Origin: Terriglobia bacterium
GTDB taxonomy: Bacteria; Acidobacteriota; Terriglobia; Acidiferrales; UBA7541
NCBI GenBank assembly: GCA_020073485.1
Contig: JAIQFB010000032.1
Location: 1-64,000, forward strand
DNA: 64,000 bases
Direction of reading: 5' to 3'
The stretch's first letter is position 1. Every line of letters begins with the position of its first letter. The position numbers and the translations under genes are program-made. Shown piece after piece: positions 9,244 to 22,155 of the stretch. The notes below the pieces were generated by a model. That model saw only the letters and a program-made list of their open reading frames with translations, was not told where the DNA came from and did not search any database.

Positions 9244-10311
9244 TCAAGCTGCTTGTTGTTTTAGATGTTCGGCGTCGAAGCGAACTCCTTTCTTCCAAAC
9301 GATCAACGTAATGGCCGCGATCTTACGTGCCAGGGTGAGCCGCGCCATCGTTGGCTTCATCCCTCGTGCTACTAAACCGGCGTGGAACTCCTGGAATGGT
9401 CCGGGGACGGCAGCGGCCCGCGTCGCGGCTCCCTTGAAGATGTTTTTCAGATCGTGATTGTGGTTGGCGTTGAGCCCGCGAATGGCCAGGAATTTCTTGG
9501 AGCGTTTCAGTCGGCCTTCCACGATTCGGTATTCCCCGCTGGTGGAAGTCTTCAACGCCAAGCCACAGTAGGCCCACAGTTGCCGCTTGGTGCGAAAACG
9601 ATGCGGTGTCTGCATCAGAGCAATCAACAGAACGGCCCGAATGGGTCCAATCGAAGGAATCTGGCGCAGCAAGTTCATCGCGCTGTGTTTCCGGCCTTCC
9701 GCCAACAGGTCTCGTCGTACTTGCTCGCGCAACGACCGCAATGCGTCCAACTGCTGATAGTAGATCTCCGCCCGACGATGCGCGCCGGCTTCGGTGATCT
9801 TGGCCAGCCATTCCGAGCGATAGCGTGGTGCGTACACGCGCTGCCCCGCGCAGGGAATCGCCCAACTCCTATACAGGGCTTTTAAGCGGTTCATCACCCG
9901 CGTGGTATCGCGGGTCAATGCCAGGTAGCTGCGGGCCGCTTCCTTGAGCGTGCGAATTCCTGTTTCGCCGTGGTAGACCGGGTTGAGTTTGTTCAGGTAC
10001 AACAGGTCGGCCAGCTTGCGAGCATCGATGCGGTCGCTCTTGTTCCCGGCTTTTATCAGCGCGTTCTTGCGCGGATCACACACCAACACTTGCGTGACGT
10101 GGGGCTTGAGCAGATCGTGCAACCACGCCGCGCAGGTTCCTTCTTCAAAGGTCACATGCAAACTGCCGCGCAGTCCGTGAATAAACTGGAGAATCGTTTC
10201 GGCTTTCGTTTCCAGGATCGCTTCCATCACCAGCTTGCCGGCAGAATCCAGAACCGCCACCGAGATCGTTGCCTGGTGAACATCCAACCCAATATACTTG
10301 GCGTCATTCAT
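9244..10311 (-). CDS. IS110-family transposase (DEDD recombinase)
   Basis: This 355-aa protein starts MNDAKYIGLDVHQATISVAV, the first Asp-containing block of the RuvC-like DEDD domain. NKSDRIDARKLADLLYL follows near residue 93. The C-terminal transposase_20 domain contains IPSIGPIRAVLLIALM, and the downstream Ser-bearing region ends WAYCGLALKTSTSGEY. Length and domain order are normal and the frame is intact. It is unrelated at the sequence level to the IS1111-type enzyme at 48212-49243 beyond shared family features. Element ends are not obvious, since IS110-group elements often lack inverted repeats. Confidence 0.93.
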   Translation of the reverse strand: MNDAKYIGLDVHQATISVAVLDSAGKLVMEAILETKAETILQFIHGLRGSLHVTFEEGTCAAWLHDLLKPHVTQVLVCDPRKNALIKAGNKSDRIDARKLADLLYLNKLNPVYHGETGIRTLKEAARSYLALTRDTTRVMNRLKALYRSWAIPCAGQRVYAPRYRSEWLAKITEAGAHRRAEIYYQQLDALRSLREQVRRDLLAEGRKHSAMNLLRQIPSIGPIRAVLLIALMQTPHRFRTKRQLWAYCGLALKTSTSGEYRIVEGRLKRSKKFLAIRGLNANHNHDLKNIFKGAATRAAAVPGPFQEFHAGLVARGMKPTMARLTLARKIAAITLIVWKKGVRFDAEHLKQQAA

Positions 10312-10826: not shown

Positions 10827-10867
10827 GCTGGCTTAACGACAGTGCGGATGACTTCTCCTGTGCCGAT

Positions 10868-10951
10868 TTCCGAGAAGTCCTGCTATCGGTAATTGAGTCT
10901 TGGGCCCTCGGGATGGACATTTCCCACATTCCGATAACGCCGTTTCTCAGG
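10868..10951. repeat. Short palindromic repeat (divergent copy)
   Basis: The right arm CCCACATTCCGATAACG and CCGTTTCTCAGG is well conserved, while the left arm (CCGAGAAGTCCTGCTATCGG) is diverged and the outer GGACTTGG end is lost. It lies between two convergent small genes. Confidence 0.6.
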
Positions 10952-10967
10952 CGGAATCCGAGAAGAC

Positions 10968-11516
10968 CTAGTTAGATTCCTCGAAAATGTACCAGTCTGG
11001 CGCGATTTTCTTGAAGCGGTAAGCATCACCGGGACTCTCCTCAACTCGCCCAGAATCCTTGTCCTGAAGACAAGGCGGCTCGGTATGGGCAGATCCATCG
11101 CGGGGCGGTCCGCAATGAACATAGCTGACGCTGCGTCCCCCGACTACGAGGCCCCAACTCCAAACGTCCAGTAGCGTATCGCTCGATTTCTCAGGCCTGG
11201 TTATTCCGTCGTCGAGTCCGGTTTGGCTGAACAGCCGTTTATAATCATTCCAACGCTCGTTGGATATTCCCCACTCCGATTCAGGACGCGGCCATGCAAC
11301 ATTATCCTGTCGCCATGTGAAGTCGGGAGCGATTCGGGACATGTTCCAATCCTCTTCCATCATCCTGACAAGACGCTCGAACTCAGGGCGTTCCTTGTTG
11401 AAGCGCCGTTCAAGCGAAGCATCACTAGGTTGGTGCGGTTTACAGCCCCACCAAAGAAGTGATATTCCCGCAAGAGTGCCGAAGCAAACTATCCCGACGA
11501 TTTTGAAAACTTTCAT
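10968..11516 (-). CDS. Putative lipoprotein of unknown function
   Basis: This 182-aa protein begins MKVFKIVGIVCFGTLAGI, followed by SLLWWGCKP, a plausible lipobox-bearing signal. The charged mature domain ends KIAPDWYIFEESN and contains VHCGPPRDGS. ATG 11516 is chosen for the signal sequence. The frame stays open to 11624 but adds only unlikely residues. No family is recognised. It is flanked by palindromic repeats on both sides and has no operon partners. Confidence 0.55.
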   Translation of the reverse strand: MKVFKIVGIVCFGTLAGISLLWWGCKPHQPSDASLERRFNKERPEFERLVRMMEEDWNMSRIAPDFTWRQDNVAWPRPESEWGISNERWNDYKRLFSQTGLDDGITRPEKSSDTLLDVWSWGLVVGGRSVSYVHCGPPRDGSAHTEPPCLQDKDSGRVEESPGDAYRFKKIAPDWYIFEESN

Positions 11517-11646
11517 GCGCGTTTGTTTGAACTGAGAATCTGCAACCATACTTGAATATATGACGTTCTGCGGAAATGTTGGACCCGTTCCTCGTAAGTT
11601 GTGCTTTCCGAAAACTGCCACCAAGTCAAGTTAGCAGGGTGTAGAG

Positions 11647-11730
11647 CCAACTCTTGATAAGTCGTCTTCTCGGAATGTGCCTTTTTTGGCAAAAAGCCAG
11701 TTACCGAGAACGCCGTTTATCAGGACTTGG
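11647..11730. repeat. Short palindromic repeat (complete)
   Basis: This 84-bp copy runs from CCAACTCTTGATAAG to TTTATCAGGACTTGG. The centre (TGCCTTTTTTGGCA) is itself palindromic. It lies upstream of the putative lipoprotein gene on one side and the 11837 membrane-protein gene on the other. Confidence 0.72.
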
Positions 11731-11836
11731 CCTAGAATTCAGAGCGCCATTTGAGCGGGGCACGGTCTCCGCGTAAAGCTCCGCGTACCCAGCATAGTTT
11801 ATGGTATTTTGCATTCAGTAAAGCCAGGGGTTCCGA

Positions 11837-12115
11837 ATGGGGACGCTCACAAGTTGGATTGAGGTAGCATTTCAAACCATTCTTTGGGGTGGCGGAATGC
11901 TACTCTGGACGACACACAAGAGAAAGACAGCAAATATCAAACCAGCCCTTTCCTACGCGGATGTTCTGTTTTGGGGCCTCGGGGGTATTGAGTTCGGCCT
12001 CGTGACAACAAATGGCTGGCAGGCATTCCATCGGCCCCTGATCCTCCTCGTCCTATTGGTATTTTTGGGTGCCATGATTACTTCTGTTCTTCGCCCTGCC
12101 AAATCTTCGCAGTAA
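11837..12115 (+). CDS. Small integral membrane protein, unknown
   Basis: This 92-aa protein has three hydrophobic segments (about residues 8-24, 41-56 and 66-84; e.g. LILLVLLVFLGAMITSVL). ATG 11837 follows AGGGG at a good distance. It ends in a short basic tail. No family is recognised. The gene is single, flanked by a repeat on each side. Confidence 0.55.
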   Translation: MGTLTSWIEVAFQTILWGGGMLLWTTHKRKTANIKPALSYADVLFWGLGGIEFGLVTTNGWQAFHRPLILLVLLVFLGAMITSVLRPAKSSQ

Positions 12116-12138
12116 AATCCATCTTTCGGTGTGCTGAA

Positions 12139-12173
12139 GCCACATTCCGATAACGCCGTTTCTCAGGACTTGG
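12139..12173. repeat. Half palindromic repeat (right arm only)
   Basis: GCCACATTCCGATAACG to CTCAGGACTTGG forms one arm, and no left arm is present. The 12272-12673 gene lies between this right arm and the left-arm half element at 12775. Confidence 0.65.
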
Positions 12174-12271
12174 GCATTTCAAAAGTTCAGATGCACCAAA
12201 GGTCGCTCGGAGGCGGCCTGCGGCTAAATCAAAACTCTTGATCCTAATGCAGCTTTCAAGATCGTGGGCGC

Positions 12272-12673
12272 TCACCTCTCAGCGGTCTTCGGCCCTTCCA
12301 TGAATTTCCCGACAAGAGAAAGAATCGCGAGCATCACAATCAAATCTCCTGAGTCGATGGCGGCAATCGCGAGTGCCGGAACCCACTTGGTGGTCCAGGG
12401 AACAAGCAAAATCAACGGGACATGAAGCGCCGCGAGGATGGCCATGGTGCCCCAAAACCACGCATGCCGCCTCAGTTTCCACTTTACAGCAACGGCGAAG
12501 CCAATTATCAAAATGCCGTTTATTATTGGCAACACAAGATCAAATCTTCCCAGATGATCGAACAGCCAAGCGGTTAGGAAAGAGCCAATACCCAGACACA
12601 ACAAGCCCCACCAGGGTAAGCGTATTTTCTTAGCCGCTTTTATGTCGCCCTTTATTTCGTTAGCTAGTGGCAT
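12272..12673 (-). CDS. Integral membrane protein, unknown
   Basis: This 133-aa protein has four predicted membrane helices (WWGLLCLGIGSFLTAWLF, LVLPIINGILIIGFAVAV, FWGTMAILAALHVPLILLV, ALAIAAIDSGDLIVMLAIL). Basic residues between helices 2 and 3 (KWKLRRHA) are consistent with a cytoplasmic loop. I recognise no family. It sits between two half repeats, just outside the phage-like element. Confidence 0.55.
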   Translation of the reverse strand: MPLANEIKGDIKAAKKIRLPWWGLLCLGIGSFLTAWLFDHLGRFDLVLPIINGILIIGFAVAVKWKLRRHAWFWGTMAILAALHVPLILLVPWTTKWVPALAIAAIDSGDLIVMLAILSLVGKFMEGPKTAER

Positions 12674-12774
12674 TTTCCGATCACCATTCCAGCACTGTAG
12701 CGATGCAGTTCCCCGCGTATGATGTTAGGTGATTACGGATTCAGATTCCAGATCGTGTGGCAGGATTCTAAACG

Positions 12775-12808
12775 CCAAGTCCCGATAAGTCGTCTTATCG
12801 GAATGTGG
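12775..12808. repeat. Half palindromic repeat (left arm only)
   Basis: This 34-nt arm has a perfect 8-bp stem CCGATAAG/CTTATCGG with a TCGT loop, the clearest example of the arm hairpin. It is the last family member seen before the phage-like element. Confidence 0.7.
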
Positions 12809-13401
12809 CTCTTCACCCCTGCCTCAACAACTCGATTCCCGCAGCAGCATCCCGCAGCAGCGCACATCGAATGAACACCCATAGTCACAGGTCACCCTAC
12901 GATTAGAGACCGCCTAAATCGCTTCTAATGCGCAAACGGATATGTGAACCACCTGCAATGCAACCATCACCGATGCAGTGAGTTACAGCGACGCGCGCGA
13001 TGCACGATTTGAATGCATTCGCTGACCTCCTGTAAATCGTTGACGCCAAAGAGGGTATGGGGGTGTCGTTTTGCGCCATGGGATGCGATGAAACCGCACG
13101 CGCAGGTCCGCCCGTACATTCGCGCTTGAACCCAGCGCCGTTTCTTCTCTTTGGGTTCGGTTTCGCGACCGATGCGCGCGGGTTCGCGGGTCATTCGCGC
13201 AGGGTTCCAGTCGCATTCATGGTTGCTTCCCTCGGGTAACCCGTAACAGTTTTTCCGTGTTTTGCGGGGTTTGGCCCCGCAGGCAAACAGGATTCCGCTC
13301 CACCCAAAATTGATTTTCTCGTGCCCTCCGACACGGGAATCCTGGCCCTCGACGTGTTGCCCACCTCTTCGCGTCGAGGGCCTGCCTAATTTAAGGATCA
13401 C
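12809..13401. other. Left flank of the phage-like element; non-coding leader
   Basis: I find no supportable gene here. A minus-strand open frame (12967-13443) overlaps the terminase gene and looks like a compositional shadow. The segment contains a GCGGGG-TTTGG-CCCCGC hairpin at 13264-13280 and the longer hairpin at 13344-13382. No copy of the tRNA-Arg 3' sequence is seen, so the left attachment site of the element is not located. Confidence 0.4.
13344..13382 (+). promoter_or_regulatory. Hairpin upstream of the terminase gene
   Basis: A perfect 11-bp stem (GGCCCTCGACG / CGTCGAGGGCC) with a 17-nt loop ends 19 bp before the terminase start codon. It could be a leader structure controlling the packaging genes or part of a packaging recognition site. 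There is no T-run, so it is not a classical terminator. Confidence 0.4.
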
Positions 13402-13974
13402 ATGGCGCAACGACTCAAAACACCGGAAGAACACGCTCTCCAAGGAACGGTCGCGAAACCCGCACAGGTCGTTGAGTCATTCGTTGCCCCTGGTCGCCCT
13501 CGGTACCCGAAAGGGATTTCCAAGGACGCGAAACGAGTTTTCAAAGACCTGTGCAAGTTGCTCGCTGAACGACGCACCCTGAGCGAAGCCGACGGATATG
13601 CATTGCGCCTGTATGTCATTTTGCATGACCGACACGTGAAGGCCATGGAAAAGATCGCGGTCGAGGGTGAGATCACGATGTACACCCGACTCGACGCTAA
13701 CGGTCGCGCGCACGAAGTCGAAAAAACAAACTTGTGGCTCGGTGTAGCGGAGCGCACGGAAAAATTGATGGCAGGAATTTTGCAAACACTCGGGTTGACC
13801 CCGAACGCGAAAGACCGAGGTCGGCCAACGCGTACACAGAAACCGACTGCCGAGGTCGACCCGATGGAAGATTTTCTTCGACGCGGTGAAGAGAACCGCA
13901 ATCGCCCGGTGCTTGTGCCGATTGCACCCGCGGACATGCTAGCCGATGACAATGAGGAGCCTCAAAATGAGTAG
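13402..13974 (+). CDS. Phage terminase small subunit, P27-type
   Basis: This 190-aa protein opens MAQRLKTPEEHALQGTVAKP and has the P27-family core FVAPGRPRYPKGISKDAKRVFKDLCKLLAERRTLSEADGYAL. A helix-rich segment AERTEKLMAGILQTLGLTPNAKDR follows. Small subunits recognise packaging sites and recruit the large ATPase. The start follows AAGGATCAC. It is the first gene of a tightly packed rightward block reaching the capsid gene. No large subunit follows it or occurs elsewhere in the window, so packaging would need a helper phage. Confidence 0.82.
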   Translation: MAQRLKTPEEHALQGTVAKPAQVVESFVAPGRPRYPKGISKDAKRVFKDLCKLLAERRTLSEADGYALRLYVILHDRHVKAMEKIAVEGEITMYTRLDANGRAHEVEKTNLWLGVAERTEKLMAGILQTLGLTPNAKDRGRPTRTQKPTAEVDPMEDFLRRGEENRNRPVLVPIAPADMLADDNEEPQNE

Positions 13975-14344
13975 CACCACGACACCACCCCGAAAGCCGC
14001 GCGAGAAATTGAAAGTCACAATGAAGCGCATCGGGTTTCGCACCATCGGTGACTGTGACAACGCCACATTTCAAGGTCGGTTGCTCTGCGACCCTATTAT
14101 TTCCGAACGCAGGAAGGCCGTCCTCCGCACGCGACGAGGGTATCCGAACGGTCGCTCAATCAACGTCATGGGTGACGATGACCCTGCAAGTGTTTGTTGG
14201 ATCACGAAGCACATGACCGCAGTAGAGCTTGAAGAATTGCACCAACGAATTTTAACGTGGCACATCAACACGTCAACAGGCTTCACCGAACCACCGCAAG
14301 GTCCGACCGCGCAACTTGGACCACACCGAGCCGAGGTGCGGTGA
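13967..14344 (+). CDS. Hypothetical protein in the capsid block
   Basis: This 125-aa basic protein (KPREKLKVTMKRIGFRTIG) overlaps the terminase gene end by 8 nt, and ATG 13967 is preceded by GAGGAG. It ends at the ATG of the next gene, so the genes are probably translationally coupled. No domain is recognised. Its position between terminase small subunit and protease is where phages often keep small head-completion or HNH genes, but no such motifs are visible. Confidence 0.55.
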   Translation: MSSTTTPPRKPREKLKVTMKRIGFRTIGDCDNATFQGRLLCDPIISERRKAVLRTRRGYPNGRSINVMGDDDPASVCWITKHMTAVELEELHQRILTWHINTSTGFTEPPQGPTAQLGPHRAEVR

Positions 14345-14772
14345 TGTCAGAGCAACAGGAATTTCTAGACGCGCTCAACGCACTTGACCATTTGGCGAAA
14401 CCTGCGCGTCAGGGTACGCAGGAACAACCAGTCCTCGCAATTTCCCTTGAGGGGATGTTTCTGAAAAATGCGAAGCGATCCGATTTGTTTGAATGGCTTT
14501 TTCAACTGGAAATACCTGCGCGGCAGGTCGTGGTGCATCCCGGCAAAGGTTTTGTGACCATCACCGTTGACGCGGTGCATGGGGAACGGTCACTCGCAAT
14601 TTTAGAAGGCGCGCAGTACCAGGGTGTGCGGTTCATCGCGAAACGATTCGAGCAGCGAACGATTCGCGGGGCGAACGCAAAACCCCTCACACCGTGCGGT
14701 GAACTTGAACGAAATCCCTATCCAGGGTTAAGGAGCGAACATGAAAGTCAAACTAGCAAATGGCAAGGGTGA
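14344..14772 (+). CDS. Hypothetical protein in the capsid block
   Basis: This 142-aa protein starts at ATG 14344, whose A is the last base of the previous stop (TGATG). It contains LFQLEIPARQVVVHPGKGFVTITVDAVHGERSLAILEGAQY, an alternating beta/alpha pattern, and a basic C-terminal half. No family is recognised. It overlaps the start of the next gene by about 30 nt, as is usual for dense phage operons. Confidence 0.55.
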   Translation: MSEQQEFLDALNALDHLAKPARQGTQEQPVLAISLEGMFLKNAKRSDLFEWLFQLEIPARQVVVHPGKGFVTITVDAVHGERSLAILEGAQYQGVRFIAKRFEQRTIRGANAKPLTPCGELERNPYPGLRSEHESQTSKWQG

Positions 14773-15157
14773 AGTATTCAATTTGGAAAACAACACCGCA
14801 CGCGTGTTGATAGCCGCAGGGACGTTGGTCGAGTACGTCGCACCCACCAAACCCCCGCGAATTGGAATCACTTCTTGGAAAGCCGTTATTAAACCCGGCA
14901 TCCGGTTTGAAAAAGAATCTTACATTGAACCGACACCGACAATCGTTGCGAGTTGTTCGATGTGCGGTGGCGCTGTGACGCTAACCGGAAGGAATGCCCA
15001 CAAAACCCAGCATTTTCTTCACTGCGGTCTCGACGAGTGTGTTCCCGCTGACATCGCAAGACAGTACGAGGGGTTGTACGAATCGTTGAAGCAGAAAGAA
15101 AAGACGCGTGAGCAATCCGCGGAAGTTCAGAAACCACATTTCATCGACATTTTTTAA
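14741..15157 (+). CDS. Hypothetical Cys-rich protein in the capsid block
   Basis: This 138-aa protein has a strong ribosome site, AAGGAGCGAAC before ATG 14741. The N-terminal part (NLENNTARVLIAAGTLVEYV) is followed by CSMCGGAVTLTG and HFLHCGLDEC, which could form a zinc site. The C-terminus is a charged helix. It lies 12 bp before the protease gene. A head-tail or decoration role is possible from position only. Confidence 0.6.
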   Translation: MKVKLANGKGEVFNLENNTARVLIAAGTLVEYVAPTKPPRIGITSWKAVIKPGIRFEKESYIEPTPTIVASCSMCGGAVTLTGRNAHKTQHFLHCGLDECVPADIARQYEGLYESLKQKEKTREQSAEVQKPHFIDIF

Positions 15158-15169
15158 GGACAAACGACC

Positions 15170-15853
15170 ATGAGCACTGACAAAAAGTTTGAACGACGCA
15201 TTCTTTTGACGAGCGAACTGCGCACCTCAAAGCAAATCGAAGGTCTCGACGATGACAATGACGACGAGGAGCGTTCTATCAGCGGTTACGCTGCGCGCTA
15301 CAACAGCCTGTCGGGTGACCTGGGCGGCTTTCGTGAGTGCATTGCCCCTGGTGCCTTTCGCGACATCGTGAAATCCGGTGCCGATGTAGTGGCTCTCTTC
15401 AACCATGACCCAAACCTTGTTCTCGGTCGAGTCTCGGCAGGCACCTTGAAGCTGACCGATGACGCGAACGGCTTGCACTTCGCATGTTCACTGCCTGACA
15501 ACCAAACCGGACGCGACCTGCACGCATCGGTCAAGCGAGGTGACGTGGCCGGGTGCAGTTTCAGTTTCATTCTCGGTGACGACGATCAAGATTGGAACGA
15601 CGCAACCGACCCCGACGACAGAAGCAAACGCTTTGTTCGTCGAACGATCAAGGCTTTCCGCAAGATTGTCGATGTCGGCCCCGTGGTGTTTCCTGCGTAT
15701 GACAGCACCTCAGTTTTAGCGCGGTCGGCCCTGGTCGCGCAGGTCAACGTCACCGATATTGTGATCCCGAAAGATTTCAGCGAAGCGGCAGCGAACGCGC
15801 ACAACGAACGGGTGCGTCGTCGCCGCGAATTATTGACACAAGTTTTGGCGTAA
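15170..15853 (+). CDS. HK97-family prohead protease
   Basis: This 227-aa enzyme has the family pattern. It starts ISGYAARYNSLSGDLGGFRECIAPGAF, then ALFNHDPNLVLGRVSAGTL carrying the catalytic His, and GCSFSFILGDDDQ with the catalytic Ser. VVFPAYDSTSVLARS closes the domain. Such serine proteases cleave the capsid delta domain during maturation. It directly precedes the capsid gene, its expected substrate, and starts after AAGGACAAACGACC. No residue loss is evident. Confidence 0.93.
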   Translation: MSTDKKFERRILLTSELRTSKQIEGLDDDNDDEERSISGYAARYNSLSGDLGGFRECIAPGAFRDIVKSGADVVALFNHDPNLVLGRVSAGTLKLTDDANGLHFACSLPDNQTGRDLHASVKRGDVAGCSFSFILGDDDQDWNDATDPDDRSKRFVRRTIKAFRKIVDVGPVVFPAYDSTSVLARSALVAQVNVTDIVIPKDFSEAAANAHNERVRRRRELLTQVLA

Positions 15854-15906
15854 AGCGAGTTCGCCGTGATGTACGCGAACACAAAAACCACGAACGGAGA
15901 AACACG

Positions 15907-17175
15907 ATGTCAAAATTTAAGGATTTGATGGCACTCATGGAAGAGGCAAGTACCTTGACCATGAAAGAAAGCATGACCCGAACGGAACAGCGACGATTGG
16001 ACGTCTTGCTCGCGTCGATGGCCGCAGTGAAGTCCGGTGTATCCCTCACCGACATCCAACGAGAGCAGTTGAACGAAATGGAGAAGCGCAACGGCCTTCC
16101 CATCACGAATTGGAAACAGAAGCGCACGACCACGTTGTCCAAGAAACAGGAAAAACGCGCGCGTGAATTCCAAGCGATTGTGCACCAGGGTCTCGAGTCG
16201 CGTGACTCGTCCGAGGGTGACATCAAGGCGCAGATCGGAACTTATGCAGGTGTCGGTTCGTTCGTGCCTGTTGAGTTTTACAACAAGTTGTTCCGCGCGA
16301 TGAAGTGGATCGACCCTCTTTTTGAAATTGCCACCGTCATCACGACGCAACACGGTCGCGCGATTGCTGTCCCGACACTCGGTGACATCGAAAACGTTGC
16401 GGTACCCGTGGGCGAAAACAGCCTCCAGGAATCGAACGGTCACGACCTGTCCAAGCCTAGCCACGTCTCTCTCGGTGCTTTCAGTTTTCGCACACCGTTG
16501 TTTCGCATGAGTCTTGAAGCGTTCGATGATTTGGAAACGTCGCTCACCGCGCGCGGGTTGTTTGAAACGTTCGCGAGTGACCGCGTGGCTCGTGGCTTCG
16601 GCAAACTTGCAATCAATGGCTCCGGCGATGGTGTGACCGGGATCAAGGGCATCGTGAAAATCCTCAGTGACTCCGGTCAAGTACCTCTCATCGCGACAGG
16701 TTCAAGCACGAACACCGGAAACACTGAAGACGGACACAACACGCTCGGGTCGAACGACTTCGCGAAGGCTTTCTTCGCAGTCAGCCAAGCCTACCGCAAA
16801 TCGCCTTCATGCGGCTGGCTCTTGAACGATAACACGTTGCAATACCTGTCGACTGTCATCGACAAAATGGGCCGACCTCTGGTGAACATCGTTGACGGTC
16901 GTGAGACGATCATGGGCCGGCCCGTGTTCAACTCACCGTCAATGCCTGACCTCGGTGCATCGCAGATTCCGGTCATCTTCGGTGACTTCTCCTATGTCAT
17001 CGTGCGCAACGCGGTCGACCCGCTGACCAGGGTTCAGGTGTTCACGCAGGCACCAGGGCTCATTGAGCAAGGTGAGGTCGGGTTGAGGTTTTTCAGTCGC
17101 CACGATGTCAACATTGCTTTCAACGACTGGAACAATTCCCCGGCTCCGTTTTCGTTCATTCAAAATCACAGCTAA
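15907..17175 (+). CDS. HK97-fold phage major capsid protein
   Basis: This 422-aa protein has an N-terminal helical delta-like region (residues about 1-110) ending in a basic stretch (KKQEKRAREFQAIVHQG), which is the usual protease target zone. The HK97 body follows: VGSFVPVEFYNKLFRAMKW, IAVPTLGDIENVAVPVGE, FRMSLEAFDDLETSL, FGKLAINGSGDGVTGIKGI, and the C-terminal VFTQAPGLIEQGEVGLRFFSR. Length is normal. The gene ends the rightward block and is followed by a terminator. No portal or head-tail adaptor is nearby, which is unusual for a functional head. Confidence 0.93.
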   Translation: MSKFKDLMALMEEASTLTMKESMTRTEQRRLDVLLASMAAVKSGVSLTDIQREQLNEMEKRNGLPITNWKQKRTTTLSKKQEKRAREFQAIVHQGLESRDSSEGDIKAQIGTYAGVGSFVPVEFYNKLFRAMKWIDPLFEIATVITTQHGRAIAVPTLGDIENVAVPVGENSLQESNGHDLSKPSHVSLGAFSFRTPLFRMSLEAFDDLETSLTARGLFETFASDRVARGFGKLAINGSGDGVTGIKGIVKILSDSGQVPLIATGSSTNTGNTEDGHNTLGSNDFAKAFFAVSQAYRKSPSCGWLLNDNTLQYLSTVIDKMGRPLVNIVDGRETIMGRPVFNSPSMPDLGASQIPVIFGDFSYVIVRNAVDPLTRVQVFTQAPGLIEQGEVGLRFFSRHDVNIAFNDWNNSPAPFSFIQNHS

Positions 17176-17203
17176 TTTCGACCGTTATACCTTGGCAAGT
17201 GTG

Positions 17204-17237
17204 TGGCCGACTCTCTTAAAGTCGGCCATTTGCTTTT
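17204..17237 (+). terminator. Intrinsic terminator after the capsid gene
   Basis: A perfect 9-bp stem TGGCCGACT / AGTCGGCCA with a 7-nt loop is followed by TTTGCTTTT. It closes the terminase-to-capsid transcription unit and argues that the next gene starts at 17269, not within this structure. Confidence 0.8.
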
Positions 17238-17268
17238 GTGTGTCCGTCACATTCACGTACGTTTTATC

Positions 17269-17985
17269 ATGACCTCAACTGTCGCAGTAACTCGCTGTGC
17301 ACCTGGGCCGATTGACCCAGCGCTGTACTTCGATGATTTGGGCCAATTCGCAAGCAAGAAGTTCAAGATTGTTAGTGCGGAAAGCGGCATCTCCTTCGGT
17401 GATGCAAAGTATATGCGCGTTCACGCGCGTGTGCTTGTTCGGTGCAAGCGTTGGCTCCCACCGTGGGCTTTCAACGACGAACAGTTGAGGACTGTTATTC
17501 TTCATCGCGGGTGGTCATACGTTCACGGTGACTCACTGCTGCCACGCGACATCACCTTTGTGGAAGCGAAACGTCAAGTGGATGAGCACTTCGCAAATGT
17601 CATGTCGCGCGAGTGGGGAAAACCAGGAAGCAAACAATGGGCCATCCACGAAGCGCACGTGCGCTCGGTGAAGAACGCGGGCGGTTACCTTGAACTCTTG
17701 GGTGCCGTGTTGTACAAATCACTGCGTGTTGGTCGCGACTCGGTCGCGGTTGCCGGTGATCTCGGAATCACGCCGTCCTCGGTGCGGCAAATTGTCGCGC
17801 GTGCAAATGAGGCCGCAGTTGCACTTGGTTTTGAAACCTTCGCACCCTCAAAGACTGCGGGTCGACCTCGCAAACGCAAAAGGAAAGTAGGGAGGCCGAA
17901 GGGCAGGGCGTTCATACCTGAACACCTCGCAAACTTGAAGGCTGCGGGTAGACTGCGACGTGCACGCGTTCACCAGGGTGATTAG
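17269..17985 (+). CDS. Putative DNA-binding protein: HTH plus AT-hook-like tail
   Basis: This 238-aa protein starts at ATG 17269. The upstream in-frame GTG at 17203 lies in the terminator. Residues about 160-185 read VAVAGDLGITPSSVRQIVARANEAA, a sigma-like helix-turn-helix. Two basic minor-groove-type motifs follow, GRPRKRKRKVGRPKGRA. The N-terminal 150 residues are unrecognised (RCKRWLPPWAFNDEQLRTV). It could be the regulator of the element or a recruited activator. It lies at the end of the rightward block, convergent with the RelA/ParA cassette. Confidence 0.6.
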   Translation: MTSTVAVTRCAPGPIDPALYFDDLGQFASKKFKIVSAESGISFGDAKYMRVHARVLVRCKRWLPPWAFNDEQLRTVILHRGWSYVHGDSLLPRDITFVEAKRQVDEHFANVMSREWGKPGSKQWAIHEAHVRSVKNAGGYLELLGAVLYKSLRVGRDSVAVAGDLGITPSSVRQIVARANEAAVALGFETFAPSKTAGRPRKRKRKVGRPKGRAFIPEHLANLKAAGRLRRARVHQGD

Positions 17986-18106
17986 CGCAGATGCATGACC
18001 CACACGACGAACATCAGCACACCGATGATGGCAACGATGACGTTGTATGCATGGTTGCAGTCACCTGAACCTGAAGGTCGTGAAGTTTGGCCGGCAGTTT
18101 GAAGGA

Positions 18107-18871
18107 TTACCTTACGTCAGTTCGCCGTCGCTTGTTCGAAGACATTTTCTGAGAAGCACGCATCATCTGTCTACTCTCTTCAAAGGATTTGAATATTGAG
18201 TCCACCAGTCGGCTACAACTTGTCGTGACTCTGGCCAAGACCTGAAGCTGCTCGTGGCAGGCGACACTACTTACTTGGTACGGATAGTTTATGGTGTGAT
18301 CCACTTCTCCCCAGACCTCATCTGCTAATGTCCGCACCTGGATCTCGCACGTAGACTTTGTTTTCAGATTTGGCCGAATTACATAGTGCACGCTTGTGTA
18401 AAGACTTGACAGTTTGTTTCTCTCAGTTCGAATGTTGATTCCCTCAAAGTACTTTCGAGATTCATCATCCCAGGTTTTCGCTATAGGCCCTTCTATCAAG
18501 CGGTAAAGGGCCTCATCAAATCTCTTCAGCAGTGCTTTGTTTATGTGATCCGTTTGTCGAGTGTGAAGGTGTAGGATTCTGAAGCCAGCGAGGTCGTTTA
18601 TTTTTGAAAATAGATTGTCGTTCGTTATCTTAAAAGGCTTACGCTGCGCTTTGGTCTCTCCTAGCTTTCTGGTCAATTTGTCTCTCAGGTGTTCGGGATC
18701 TTTCGTCCGCCATTTTATCGAGTGCACTTGGCTCATGAGCTCTTCGTCACCGAGAACGTGGTCTTTCAGCTGATTCAGCACCAATTCAAAATGGTCCCGA
18801 TTCTCAACGTAGTGTTGGACTAATTCTCCAATTCGCTTAGCTTCAGTGCGCGATGGAGTATATGGCTTCAT
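18107..18871 (-). CDS. RelA/SpoT-fold nucleotidyltransferase (small alarmone synthetase-like)
   Basis: This 254-aa protein has a (p)ppGpp synthetase-type domain without an HD hydrolase. Visible blocks are HLRDKLTRKLGE (donor-nucleotide basic patch), NDLAGFRILHLH with the metal-binding Asp, YTSVHYVIRPN with the Tyr that stacks the acceptor, and EIQVRTLADEVWGEVDH with the catalytic Glu and Gln. A roughly 45-residue insertion separates the NDLAGFRI and YTSVHYV blocks. The C-terminus is a basic tail (SSNKRRRTDVR). Relatives make or transfer pyrophosphate, and some are toxins of phage-defence toxin-antitoxin pairs. It is last in a three-gene operon, 12 bp after the ParA-like gene. No obvious antitoxin is seen unless a partner plays that part. 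Confidence 0.85.
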   Translation of the reverse strand: MKPYTPSRTEAKRIGELVQHYVENRDHFELVLNQLKDHVLGDEELMSQVHSIKWRTKDPEHLRDKLTRKLGETKAQRKPFKITNDNLFSKINDLAGFRILHLHTRQTDHINKALLKRFDEALYRLIEGPIAKTWDDESRKYFEGINIRTERNKLSSLYTSVHYVIRPNLKTKSTCEIQVRTLADEVWGEVDHTINYPYQVSSVACHEQLQVLARVTTSCSRLVDSIFKSFEESRQMMRASQKMSSNKRRRTDVR

Positions 18872-18883
18872 GTGTGACCGCTC

Positions 18884-19882
18884 TTATTCAGTGCGAGCGA
18901 TTATCTTCCTTGCGATTGTTTCGAAAGCCAGTCGTGCCTGTTCCCTTTGGTCCGGAGTCCCAGCATCCGCCAACATGAGCGGAACACCTTGAATTTGGGA
19001 CTCATTCGCGAGAGTCCCGAAATCCTTGATTTGCCCCAATTTGTTCTGGCTTAACGACGATGAAGCGAGATTTGGATCGATCTTCCTTAAAACTCGCACC
19101 ACATCACTGGCGATATGCTTCTCGATCTGCGACATATACTTTGAATAGCCGCTGGCGACTTGCCCTCTATAAATTCTAAAATGTTGAGGGATATACCCCA
19201 GGAAGCGTGGATTGCCAGGTAATAAATAAATGCCGTCTGGTGCCAGCCTGTCAATCATTCGCCAGTCCGATACCCAGGTAGCCAATGTCTGACCGAGAGT
19301 CTTTAGCGCTCGGATTGAAAAAAGGTCGCAGGCCGCAGGGACGATGAAAAAATTGCAGTCAAGCAGAATCACGCGATTAAGCGGACCAACGTTTGGCCCA
19401 CAGTCGTAAAAAACGTAGTCAATGCTGTGGTCCGCACAAACGAAGTTGATGAGTTGACTCAACGCGCTTGTTCCCCGCAGACCCCTGAGCTTTCTTTGAA
19501 AGCAGTCGCTCCACATCTGTGTTAATTCCTCTTCGAAATCTGACAATCGAATGTCGCCCGGAAGTAGCTTGACTCTCCTGATACCTAGTTCGACGGGCTC
19601 GATTTGATGTAGATCTCCTGTAGCTTGGACAATCGGCCTTAGCGCCGTCCATAGGGTCACACCCTCGGAGCTGTCGGATTCGTCTAGCCAAGTGTCCAAG
19701 ACGTCTTCTGCAATCAAATAGGAGGTCAAATTACATTGAGGGTCAGCATCGACAAGAAGGACTCTCTTTCCCATTGATGCTAGAGCCGCTGCAATGTTGA
19801 CCGTGAGCGTGGTTTTCCCTACGCCCCCCTTATGATTAAAGAGAGCGATTCTCTCTGCCCTGTGTCGCTTTACAGTCTTCAT
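18884..19882 (-). CDS. ParA/Soj-family ATPase
   Basis: This 332-aa protein has a deviant Walker A FNHKGGVGKTTLTVNIAAALA at residues about 15-35 with the signature Lys, then VLLVDADPQCNLTSYL, YVFYDCGPNVGPLNRVILLDC (Walker B type) and a long C-terminal domain. Partition ATPases are usually about 250-300 aa, and this one has extra sequence around residues 60-120 and 215-290. No ParB or centromere-like repeats are seen, so partitioning is not the obvious role. It lies 22 bp after the 188-aa protein gene and 12 bp before the RelA/SpoT gene, so all three are probably one transcript. Confidence 0.88.
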   Translation of the reverse strand: MKTVKRHRAERIALFNHKGGVGKTTLTVNIAAALASMGKRVLLVDADPQCNLTSYLIAEDVLDTWLDESDSSEGVTLWTALRPIVQATGDLHQIEPVELGIRRVKLLPGDIRLSDFEEELTQMWSDCFQRKLRGLRGTSALSQLINFVCADHSIDYVFYDCGPNVGPLNRVILLDCNFFIVPAACDLFSIRALKTLGQTLATWVSDWRMIDRLAPDGIYLLPGNPRFLGYIPQHFRIYRGQVASGYSKYMSQIEKHIASDVVRVLRKIDPNLASSSLSQNKLGQIKDFGTLANESQIQGVPLMLADAGTPDQREQARLAFETIARKIIARTE

Positions 19883-19904
19883 TAGGAATCTTCGCAGCTA
19901 GTGA

Positions 19905-20471
19905 TTACTTTGCTTTCGCCGATTTGCGGGACTTCTTTCGGGGTTTGACCTTACCCATCGCAGCCTTTGCGGCTTCCCGATCAGGCAATGCTTGGACAAA
20001 AACTTCCCCAGGTGCGCTGATCTGTTTGGTGCCTCTTACTGCGGGTACTAGATAACCTGTCCGTCCAGCGTTGTTGACTGCAACATATACGTTGGACATC
20101 TTGCTTTGGGCAGCTTCTGTATTCAGCTTGCTGATGTCAATCGTTTTGAAATGCGGCGTACTCCGATAATGCGTCAAGTAGAATGCGAGGCAGGCTACTC
20201 TTTCCACGTCGGAGCGTGGCTGCTTCTGCATAATGAATTCCTTCGGTGAAATATCTCTTTCCTCGGAGAAACCTCCGCCTGGTGGAGAAGACCGAGGAGT
20301 ACTAGCCGGAATTCCTTTTGTTTGACTTGGGCTTTGCGACGGCGTCCGCAACCCAAAGAATGTCGCGACGGTCTCCAGGAGCTTCTGTTGTTCCTCGGGG
20401 GCCAGATCACGCAGATCTGCGATAACCTTTGTAAGGATGGTTGCCATGTCTGAAGGTTTCTTCGCGCCCAC
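19905..20471 (-). CDS. Unrecognised protein, first gene of the ParA/RelA cassette
   Basis: This 188-aa protein starts at GTG 20471 with GGAGGGAC upstream, and an internal ATG at 20447 is the alternative. Residues about 10-40 form a helix (ILTKVIADLRDLAPEEQQKL), followed by a Ser/Pro/Gly-rich linker. The C-terminal domain begins QPRSDVERVACLAFYLTHYR and continues FKTIDISKLNTEAAQSKMSN and AVNNAGRTGYLVPA, then GEVFVQALPDREAAKAAMGK. The pattern resembles a winged-helix module. The tail is strongly basic (KPRKKSRKSAKAK). It may be a DNA-binding or adaptor partner of the ATPase, as ParB-type or activator proteins are. That is an inference. Confidence 0.65.
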   Translation of the reverse strand: MGAKKPSDMATILTKVIADLRDLAPEEQQKLLETVATFFGLRTPSQSPSQTKGIPASTPRSSPPGGGFSEERDISPKEFIMQKQPRSDVERVACLAFYLTHYRSTPHFKTIDISKLNTEAAQSKMSNVYVAVNNAGRTGYLVPAVRGTKQISAPGEVFVQALPDREAAKAAMGKVKPRKKSRKSAKAK

Positions 20472-20550
20472 TTTTGAGTCCCTCCACTTACTAAATGCGT
20501 CACAGGTTCATATTTCGTATCATACATTGAGGATTGCCGAAAGGAGATTT
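20472..20550. promoter_or_regulatory. Divergent promoter region between cassette and integrase side
   Basis: This gap lies between the start of the minus-strand ParA/RelA cassette and the plus-strand small gene and integrase. It should contain the cassette promoter. A TATGAT-like -10 reading on the minus strand near 20515-20525 is possible, but no matching -35 is convincing. Confidence 0.3.
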
Positions 20551-20724
20551 ATGTTTCCGGAAATGATCCAACTTAGTTCGTGTCTCATCTATCCAGCAAG
20601 ATTACTCTTGCGTTATTCCCGGGCCTGTGTTAGATTATTTGTACTGGATGAACAGCGTGTCCACCCGACTGGTGACCGCAGAATAATGTTCGAAATTCCA
20701 GCAGTCGGGACCCCGCAACGGTAA
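20551..20724 (+). CDS. Possible 57-aa protein upstream of the integrase
   Basis: ATG 20551 is preceded by AAAGGAG at ideal spacing, one of the strongest ribosome sites in the element. The product (MFPEMIQLSSCLIYPARLLL at its start, ending MFEIPAVGTPQR) is basic and partly hydrophobic, with no recognised family. Excisionases and small regulators often occupy this position next to an integrase, but no HTH is evident. It may instead be a leader peptide or a chance frame. Confidence 0.35.
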   Translation: MFPEMIQLSSCLIYPARLLLRYSRACVRLFVLDEQRVHPTGDRRIMFEIPAVGTPQR

Positions 20725-20784
20725 CTACCCTCGACGAACGTCCGGGTAACGCACCGAATCCAATAACAGGATTCGTGTGTCCCG

Positions 20785-22047
20785 ATGTCCAATTCAGTTG
20801 AAACGCAAGACCTGAACGGTGTACAACCTCGTCCGACACCGACAAGACGACTGCGAGGTCCGTCATTGTCGAGAAGGACAGGTCAGTCAGGTACAGTGGT
20901 TCAGCATTCCAAAACGTGGGACCCTGGTGCACCCTGCTACGGTAAGTTTTGGGTCGACGTACCCGGTAATCCACGCAAACGTCGCACGATTGCACTCGGA
21001 GTCTGCGCGACAAAATCCAAAGCCCGATCACAGCTGCGCGAGTACATCGAACGCGAGGGTGTCAATTCGTCGCAGTCATTCCACCAACAAACAGCGCCGG
21101 CTACGACGTTCCGTGAGCAAGCAGAAAGTTGGCTCGCGTCACTCCCAACGCGTCGTCGCAAACCAGTCAAACCCGCCACGATTCACGGTTGGCGGCATTC
21201 CCTCGACAAATGGTTGATGCCAACCCTCGGTGACATGGTACTTGCCGAGGTCGGTAATGGTGCGTTGAAAAATGTCATCGAGAAAATGTCAGCAGGTGGC
21301 CTTGCACCGCAATCCATCGTCACCCATTCCCGCGTTGTAAAAATGGTGATGTCGAGTGCCGTCAACTCCGAGGGCGACGAAATTTATCCGCGCAAGTGGA
21401 ATCACAATTTCGTAGGCCTTCCAATCGTTGACCCAACAAAACAGAAACGACCGACCGTAACCCAAGCAGAGCTTCAAAATATCCTAGCCGCGCTCGCACC
21501 TCGGTACAGGGTTCTCGTAGCTTTGCTCGCGGGTACGGGGCTTCGCATCGGTGAGGCGCTAGGCTTGAAGCTCGACGACCTCAATTCCGAGTGCACGACC
21601 CTTCACGTTCGGCGAAGCATTTGGCACGGTCGAGAACAACAACCCAAAACAGAAAATGCCGTCCGCGTAATCGACATCCCTGAGCAACTCGCGCAACTCC
21701 TACGCGAGCATATTGCCGAGTTGACAGGTTATTTATTCGCGACGCGCAACGGCACTCCACTGTCACAACGCAACGTTCTTCGCGCCCTTTACATCGCGGG
21801 TTCGACCTGCGGGTTCCACTCATTTCGGCGGTACCGAGCAGCCGTATTGCGCAAAGCTCGGGTACCAGAAGATCTGATTGGACTCTGGCTCGGGCACGCG
21901 CGCAACCTCACAGATCGCTATGCGGTGCAGTTGACTGACGATCTCGCATTCCGTTCTGAGTGGTGCGAACGTGCAGGGGTCGGGTTTCAGTTGGTCAACA
22001 GTGGTACACAAAACGTGGTCAGTATTGACGCGACGCGAGTCGCGTAG
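20785..22047 (+). CDS. int: Tyrosine-recombinase integrase
   Basis: This 420-aa phage-type integrase has an arm-binding N-terminus (GKFWVDVPGNPRKRRTIALG), a core-binding SAM-like domain from about residue 110 (TFREQAESWLASLPTRRRKP), and a catalytic domain from about 225. Catalytic residues are visible: Arg in GTGLRIGEALGL, His-x-x-Arg in FHSFRRYRA, the GHA block (LWLGHARNLTD), and the nucleophile Tyr in DRYAVQL. All are present, so it may be active. It ends 31 bp before tRNA-Arg, pointing at it. This is the usual int-att proximity, but on the 5' side of the tRNA rather than the 3' side. Confidence 0.93.
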   Translation: MSNSVETQDLNGVQPRPTPTRRLRGPSLSRRTGQSGTVVQHSKTWDPGAPCYGKFWVDVPGNPRKRRTIALGVCATKSKARSQLREYIEREGVNSSQSFHQQTAPATTFREQAESWLASLPTRRRKPVKPATIHGWRHSLDKWLMPTLGDMVLAEVGNGALKNVIEKMSAGGLAPQSIVTHSRVVKMVMSSAVNSEGDEIYPRKWNHNFVGLPIVDPTKQKRPTVTQAELQNILAALAPRYRVLVALLAGTGLRIGEALGLKLDDLNSECTTLHVRRSIWHGREQQPKTENAVRVIDIPEQLAQLLREHIAELTGYLFATRNGTPLSQRNVLRALYIAGSTCGFHSFRRYRAAVLRKARVPEDLIGLWLGHARNLTDRYAVQLTDDLAFRSEWCERAGVGFQLVNSGTQNVVSIDATRVA

Positions 22048-22078: not shown

Positions 22079-22155
22079 GCGCCCGTAGCTCAGGTGGATA
22101 GAGCGTCTGCCTTCTAAGCAGAGGGTCGGGGGTTCGACTCCCTCCGGGCGCGCCA
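22079..22155 (+). tRNA. tRNA-Arg (anticodon UCU), CCA encoded
   Basis: The acceptor stem GCGCCCG (22079-22085) pairs with CGGGCGC (22145-22151). The anticodon stem TCTGC/GCAGA encloses loop CTTCTAA with anticodon TCT at 22113-22115, and the T-arm contains GGTTCGACTCC. The encoded CCA ends at 22155. From the anticodon loop to the 3' end it is duplicated at 30953-30998, marking it as an integration site. Confidence 0.95.

Follow-up and report, generated by a model that had tools for sequence, protein, structure and literature searches.

A block of three minus-strand genes at positions 18107–20471 of the window (the whole 64,000-nucleotide stretch of DNA that was analysed) lies within a phage-like element and encodes an unrecognised protein of 188 aa, a ParA-type ATPase and a single-domain RelA/SpoT-fold pyrophosphotransferase (hereafter SAS), which raises the question of what such a combination does. 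A sequence-only reading had proposed an abortive module as a working hypothesis. The results presented here allow us to assume, with a probability of about 0.6, that the trio is a mobile three-gene abortive-infection operon, in which the product of gene 3 is toxic, ParA is its partner and the gene 1 protein is accessory. The earlier hypothesis is thus supported by the conservation and mobility of the trio, the retained residues of the SAS and the absence of ParB, with the role in defence being inferred.

The locus and the element that carries it

The coordinates of the three open reading frames (ORFs) and of the 22 and 12 bp gaps given for them earlier were verified, and Pfam matches bore out the RelA/SpoT-fold and ParA-type assignments made in the sequence-only reading. 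Its placement of the trio between a capsid block (13402–17175) on one side and a tyrosine integrase on the other was also correct (Table 1). No matches of the gene 1 protein were found in Pfam, NCBIfam, PADLOC or PHROGs. Promoter-like sites near gene 1 were no more numerous than in shuffled sequence.

Table 1. Features of the trio locus and of the surrounding element
Feature	Position	Strand	Evidence
Terminase small subunit	13402–13974	+	Pfam, PHROGs
Prohead protease (S78)	15170–15853	+	Pfam, PHROGs
HK97-type major capsid protein	15907–17175	+	Pfam, PHROGs
Gene 3, RelA/SpoT-fold pyrophosphotransferase (SAS), single-domain, 254 aa, putative effector	18107–18871	−	PF04607 2e-15
Gap of 12 bp between genes 2 and 3, operon junction	18872–18883	−	ORF coordinates
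Gene 2, ParA-type ATPase, 332 aa	18884–19882	−	AAA_31 1e-29; phrog_164 4e-42
Gap of 22 bp between genes 1 and 2, operon junction	19883–19904	−	ORF coordinates
Gene 1, winged-helix protein (predicted), 188 aa, GTG start	19905–20471	−	no library match; AlphaFold2 fold
Possible promoter 5' of gene 1, TGGACA-18-AATAAT, 10/12	20634–20663	−	motif scan
Tyrosine integrase of the carrying element	20785–22047	+	PF00589 1.7e-16; phrog_1 1e-44
tRNA-Arg(TCT), adjoins the integrase	22079–22155	+	tRNA search

Since no large terminase, portal or tail genes were recognised within 13402–22047, the element may be either a capsid-bearing satellite-like element or a remnant. The left end contains no exact repeat of the tRNA-Arg region longer than 10 bp, and a search for att-like direct repeats was likewise negative; in the absence of a duplicated att copy, the borders of the element are undefined. 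Just outside the element, an ORF of 355 aa (9244–10311) resembles an IS110-type transposase (by eye). In addition, the region 10860–12813 contains dispersed repeats of 37–40 nt that belong to two or more interleaved families, e.g., TTCCGATAACGCCGTTTCTCAGGA and CCGATAAGTCGTCTTATCGG-like sequences, looking like palindromic REP/MITE-type intergenic elements.

Distribution of the trio and of a two-gene form

A search with a two-sequence SAS alignment (the window protein and a Caballeronia relative) against 84,980 species genomes and against viral contigs yielded 56 and 14 loci, respectively. The window SAS alone gave no match in the viral contigs, and matches appeared after the Caballeronia relative was added. 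The complete trio in identical gene order was found at 26 further loci among these matches, one of them on a viral contig, in hosts from at least eight phyla (Pseudomonadota, Acidobacteriota, Bacteroidota, Nitrospirota, Actinomycetota, Planctomycetota, Fidelibacterota (Marinimicrobia) and Eremiobacterota). The gene junctions in these loci mostly range from −29 to +20 bp (−29 to +19 bp for that of genes 1 and 2), and the few larger negative values are ascribed to ORFs having been extended to the farthest upstream start. Identity to the window proteins amounts to 50–60% for ParA, 39–56% for SAS and 23–51% for the gene 1 protein; such identity of ParA and SAS across phyla, together with the conserved catalytic residues, excludes an ORF artefact. 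Clustering of 696 neighbouring ORFs from the 26 trios revealed no fourth conserved gene, and the only clusters present in more than two loci were antisense ORFs within the three trio genes.

The SAS was found in one of the 95 genomes of the order and not in the other 94, which, taken alone, would have suggested a singleton; the full trio was present in 3 of the 396 genomes of the phylum. It had been stated beforehand that occurrence of the trio only here would refute the hypothesis, and conserved co-occurrence had been named as a check. The 26 further loci rule out the former, and the trio is kept as a unit across the phyla listed. Recurrence in one order at so many loci goes far beyond chance, and the trio is thereby confirmed as a real operon that is conserved across phyla. 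As far as can be judged from sequence, no refuting condition named beforehand has been fulfilled.

The distances of the three proteins covary only moderately (r 0.41–0.45; 0, 8 and 2 of 5000 permutations were as high). In phylogenetic trees, the trio SAS proteins form a single supported group (100/99), except for locus L057 (3365–5684), where ParA is a member of the trio clade but the SAS groups with the two-gene subtype, an apparent effector exchange. Members of different phyla are combined in supported subgroups, e.g., Acidobacteriota with Mycobacterium and a viral contig. Trees and distances show the pattern expected of a unit that has moved horizontally and occasionally exchanged partners.

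At least 24 further loci contain a ParA–SAS pair without the winged-helix gene, the ParA usually being about 367 aa long. ParA and SAS make up the invariant core, to which one subtype adds the winged-helix protein. In the plasmid pNK81 of Caballeronia sp. NK8 (L008, 4900–6684), ParA is followed by an SAS that is 42% identical to that of the window. In this plasmid pair, the ParA frame is interrupted within the Walker A motif and the SAS frame is open.

In two viral contigs (L082 and L090), the pair was recognised by eye with the gene of a P2-type replication protein on one side and that of the portal on the other, and blastn revealed it in 7 of 5,426 E. coli genomes, where it is annotated as “ParA family protein” and “RelA/SpoT domain-containing protein”. 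All three of the E. coli contexts that were opened are P2-like prophages, with the portal gene on one side of the pair and, on the other, a DinI-like gene following the replication endonuclease. This is the same site as that of the P2 old/tin cargo defences, a defence hotspot that is home to tin and old as well as to several recently discovered defence systems (PMC9519451). Neither ParA nor RelA/SpoT appears in the main text of a paper on P2/P4 hotspots (PMC9122126).

As for the trio, its earlier description as the cargo of a mobile element agrees with the integrases that adjoin it at four loci (L020, L027, L029 and L030, by eye). One trio (L031) adjoins HmaA/HmaB (1552 and 334 bits) and another (L034) lies side by side with an operon of a winged-helix gene and a HEPN-like gene; for several trio loci, the neighbourhood shows no evident defence genes. 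A recurrent location in defence hotspots and mobile elements is thus observed, without a control comparison for enrichment.

The ATPase and the pyrophosphotransferase

The window ParA contains the Walker A motif NHKGGVGKTT and the motif DADPQCN, and an N-terminal HTH was not seen in it. NHKGGVGKTT is found throughout the trio set, Walker A being invariant in the ParA proteins save for conservative changes, and DxDPQCN is nearly invariant in the trio ParAs; judging from these conserved motifs, the protein should bind and hydrolyse ATP. The deviant Walker A motif KGGVGKTT and the D-x-DPQ motif are shared with ParA/Soj and with 3pg5, an uncharacterised protein of 361 aa that is the nearest solved relative of the ParA family profile (4e-57); segregation proteins such as Soj rank behind it (1e-21). 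Unlike ParA/Soj, the trio ParA is coupled to an SAS and lacks ParB and a centromere.

It could be supposed that the trio serves partition or stabilisation, with the winged-helix protein binding a centromere, ParA acting as the partition motor and the SAS as a linked growth regulator, by analogy with AspA–ParB–ParA of the archaeal plasmid pNOB8. The pNOB8 partition system has a winged-helix partner, and the trio ParA fold is related to Soj and to 5u1j, which we take to be the pNOB8 ParA. However, no ParB accompanies the trio, as no fourth gene is conserved in the 26 trios, and no iterons were found 5' of gene 1 in 20472–20800 (window only), so that the lack of ParB or a centromere noted from the sequence was upheld. 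Moreover, the two-gene form is chromosomally integrated in prophages without a winged-helix gene, and relatives of the winged-helix protein serve operons without ParA. Partition is the least credible of the explanations considered and is very unlikely. Membership in ParABS was rejected: the ATPase motifs are present, but both ParB and iterons are missing within the scope given above.

In all 51 ParA-linked SAS proteins, residues R55, K57, K65, R68, D93, G96, R98, Y158 and S160 are invariant, as are H162, E176, Q178, R180, E185, W187, E189, H192 and Y196. The spacing of K57-H61-K65-R68 is identical to that of the ATP-binding residues K66-S70-K74-R77 of FaRel2 (PMC11782079). Given the invariant residues and this spacing, the SAS has very probably kept its ability to donate pyrophosphate from ATP. 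The residues needed for the synthetase or transferase activity expected earlier are thus kept at the sequence level, and the activity itself is inferred. The G-loop reads YTS[VI]HY in nearly all of these 51 proteins: at position 159, the Arg of GYRSxHY has given way to Thr in 50 of them and to Ser in the remaining one, and a bulkier residue, in most cases hydrophobic, stands in place of the Gly. Four related SAS proteins that do not adjoin ParA keep GYRSxHY. It cannot be told from the sequence whether the acceptor is tRNA or adenosine or guanosine nucleotides.

SAS genes of the GYRSxHY type without linkage to ParA were noted on plasmids of Paracoccus (L010, 1712–2881), Geobacillus (L009, 4911–5942) and Ilyobacter (L011, 4821–5600), and some of their products have long C-terminal extensions.

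The SAS model (35-sequence alignment, pLDDT 95) superposes on RelP/RelQ and CapRel. In the fold search, RelP/RelQ, which have the SYNTH fold, came first (6fgj/6ex0, E 3e-9; 2be3, TM 0.62) and CapRel ranked lower (E 1e-5). The closest solved folds, RelP/RelQ, are non-toxic (p)ppGpp synthetases, which, along with the absence of any experiment, counts against a defensive function and leaves room for a metabolic one, in which (p)ppGpp made by the SAS under the control of ParA would slow the host or adjust prophage induction, with no anti-phage role. Nevertheless, the G-loop of nearly all ParA-linked SAS differs from that of the unlinked relatives, and the trio also occurs outside recognisable prophages, beside Hma; such a role is therefore regarded as quite improbable. 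The SAS also differs from RelP/RelQ in its identity (only about 18–21% over the fold alignment), its linkage to ParA and its sporadic distribution on mobile elements. Assignment to RelQ was rejected because the GYRSxH-type G-loop is lacking in ParA-linked SAS.

The toxSAS proteins FaRel2 and PhRel2 and the fused CapRel resemble the SAS in having a single SYNTH fold with intact ATP-binding lysines/arginines, catalytic Asp/Glu and acceptor Tyr. Like the trio, they are found on mobile elements, and CapRel is an anti-phage effector. However, the G-loop YTS[VI]HY distinguishes the trio SAS, and an obligate ParA and a winged-helix protein take the place of a pseudo-zinc-finger or alarmone-hydrolase antitoxin; no pZFD, Panacea or small alarmone hydrolase domains were detected in the three window proteins using Pfam and NCBIfam. 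Assignment to CapRel was rejected, as no adjacent or fused antitoxin of a known type was found in this search and no fourth gene is conserved.

A toxin–antitoxin or addiction function is unlikely, though it has more in its favour than the two preceding explanations. In this reading, the SAS would be a toxSAS countered by ParA, the winged-helix protein or both as a classical antitoxin-repressor, and the element would be stabilised without phage sensing. Such a function would fit the compact operon of two or three genes, the basic winged-helix gene in first place and the mobile location, and toxSAS are known toxins of toxin–antitoxin systems (PMC11782079). On the other hand, the invariant partner here is an ATPase, whereas the described toxSAS are paired with antitoxins that are either small proteins or alarmone hydrolases; the two-gene form contains no small antitoxin-like gene; and the P2 old/tin position points to defence.

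Proposed mechanism and the winged-helix family

All three alternatives are less supported than ParA-gated abortive infection. According to the latter, the SAS would be a toxic effector that uses ATP as its pyrophosphate donor and modifies either the 3'-CCA end of tRNA or a purine nucleotide, thereby stopping growth. ParA would be its obligate partner, and its ATP-dependent dimerisation or DNA binding may keep the SAS inactive or, conversely, activate it; which protein inhibits which is inferred, as are the toxicity and the product. What rests on the sequence analysis itself is that the operon is conserved, that its motifs are intact, that the folds are as described, that its surroundings are mobile or defence-related and that partners are exchanged. 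Upon infection, the state of ParA could change through an inferred trigger, such as the disappearance of nucleoid DNA, a shift in nucleotide pools or a protein of the phage, and the released SAS activity would halt translation or drain nucleotides, resulting in abortive infection. The basic winged-helix protein may act as an accessory sensor or adaptor, DNA-binding or operon-regulating, that is supplied elsewhere to other effectors. Since the two-gene form is present in P2-like prophages of E. coli, this mechanism can be tested directly in that host.

RelA/SpoT-fold immune toxins (CapRel, toxSAS) are already known. The combination of ParA and RelA/SpoT as a system is undescribed in Pfam, NCBIfam, PHROGs, PADLOC and the open-access papers searched, and neither the ParA-gated form nor the winged-helix family was found there, in line with the earlier statement that the trio is not known from any described system. 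Supplements, subscription papers and newer catalogues were outside the scope of this search, and words starting with “para” blurred many of the text searches. PADLOC 2.0 (2023) gave weak matches alone, for ParA to PDC-M28B (1e-9) and for one two-gene-type SAS to PDC-S33 (3e-4), and no match for the window SAS and the winged-helix protein; later catalogues might differ.

The AlphaFold2 model of the gene 1 protein (34 sequences) comprises a helical hairpin (6–38), a disordered linker, a winged helix (76–175) and a basic tail. The winged helix was predicted with a pLDDT of about 97, which agrees with the winged-helix-like label given to this protein before. Its pI is 10 in the window and 8.6–10.1 across all trio members. 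A PDB sequence search with the winged-helix profile gave nothing significant, and the fold search returned generic winged helices alone (MarR, Rok, chains of the retron-Eco1 complex and MCM8, the last with a target TM of 0.71). As these matches are generic, with E values of 0.05 or worse, no specific relative is claimed. A tblastn search of the gene 1 protein against phages and plasmids yielded no match, and profile A3 of the winged-helix family proved too diverse to be run against the viral contigs.

According to the profile searches, 11 of the phylum's 396 genomes and 6 of 369 genomes of another class contain the winged-helix family. When 14 records were checked for copy number, 11 gave a match, each with a single copy. 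In most of the examined members outside the trio, another predicted effector is encoded within about 30 bp downstream or is fused to the winged helix. These effectors include TIR_2-like proteins (L107, L108; weak, below the Pfam cut-off), pP_pnuc_1 nucleases (L109, 3e-15; L128, 3e-11), HEPN-like proteins (L034, L097, L100, L105, L106 and L129; Rx3-6H motif by eye, no Pfam match) and a possible PLD-like protein (L099, by eye). An AbiEii nucleotidyltransferase (PF08843, 4e-28 and 1e-30) carries a winged-helix-family stretch at its C-terminus in L098 (3748–5085) and L101 (4002–5333), and one member (L130) has no evident partner. Restriction-modification or DUF262-type genes surround loci L128, L097 and L098 (by eye). 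The relatives linked to TIR and nuclease proteins are distant (18–25% identity; E 1e-10 to 1e-13 against the trio profile). Partnership of the 188-aa family with other effector types makes a shared adaptor or sensor somewhat likelier than a simple repressor.

Whether the trio represents a new class of immune systems, in which a ParA DNA/ATP switch gates a pyrophosphotransferase toxin, and whether the winged-helix proteins form an adaptor family common to unrelated effectors (SAS, HEPN RNase, TIR, pP_pnuc nuclease and AbiEii nucleotidyltransferase) and a sensor module of many abortive-infection operons, can be suggested only tentatively, as a possibility somewhat short of even odds. If true, an ATPase-controlled branch would join the small group of RelA/SpoT-fold immune effectors, ParA-type switches would gain a role outside DNA segregation, and an unnamed winged-helix family would flag candidate immune operons with several kinds of effectors.

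Two further observations concern individual winged-helix loci. In L105 (8632–9884), two tandem genes of this family, the second strongly diverged, are located 5' of one HEPN-like gene, and in L097 (1725–4012), an IS21-like transposase pair lies beside a DUF262-type gene and the operon of the winged-helix and HEPN-like genes (by eye).
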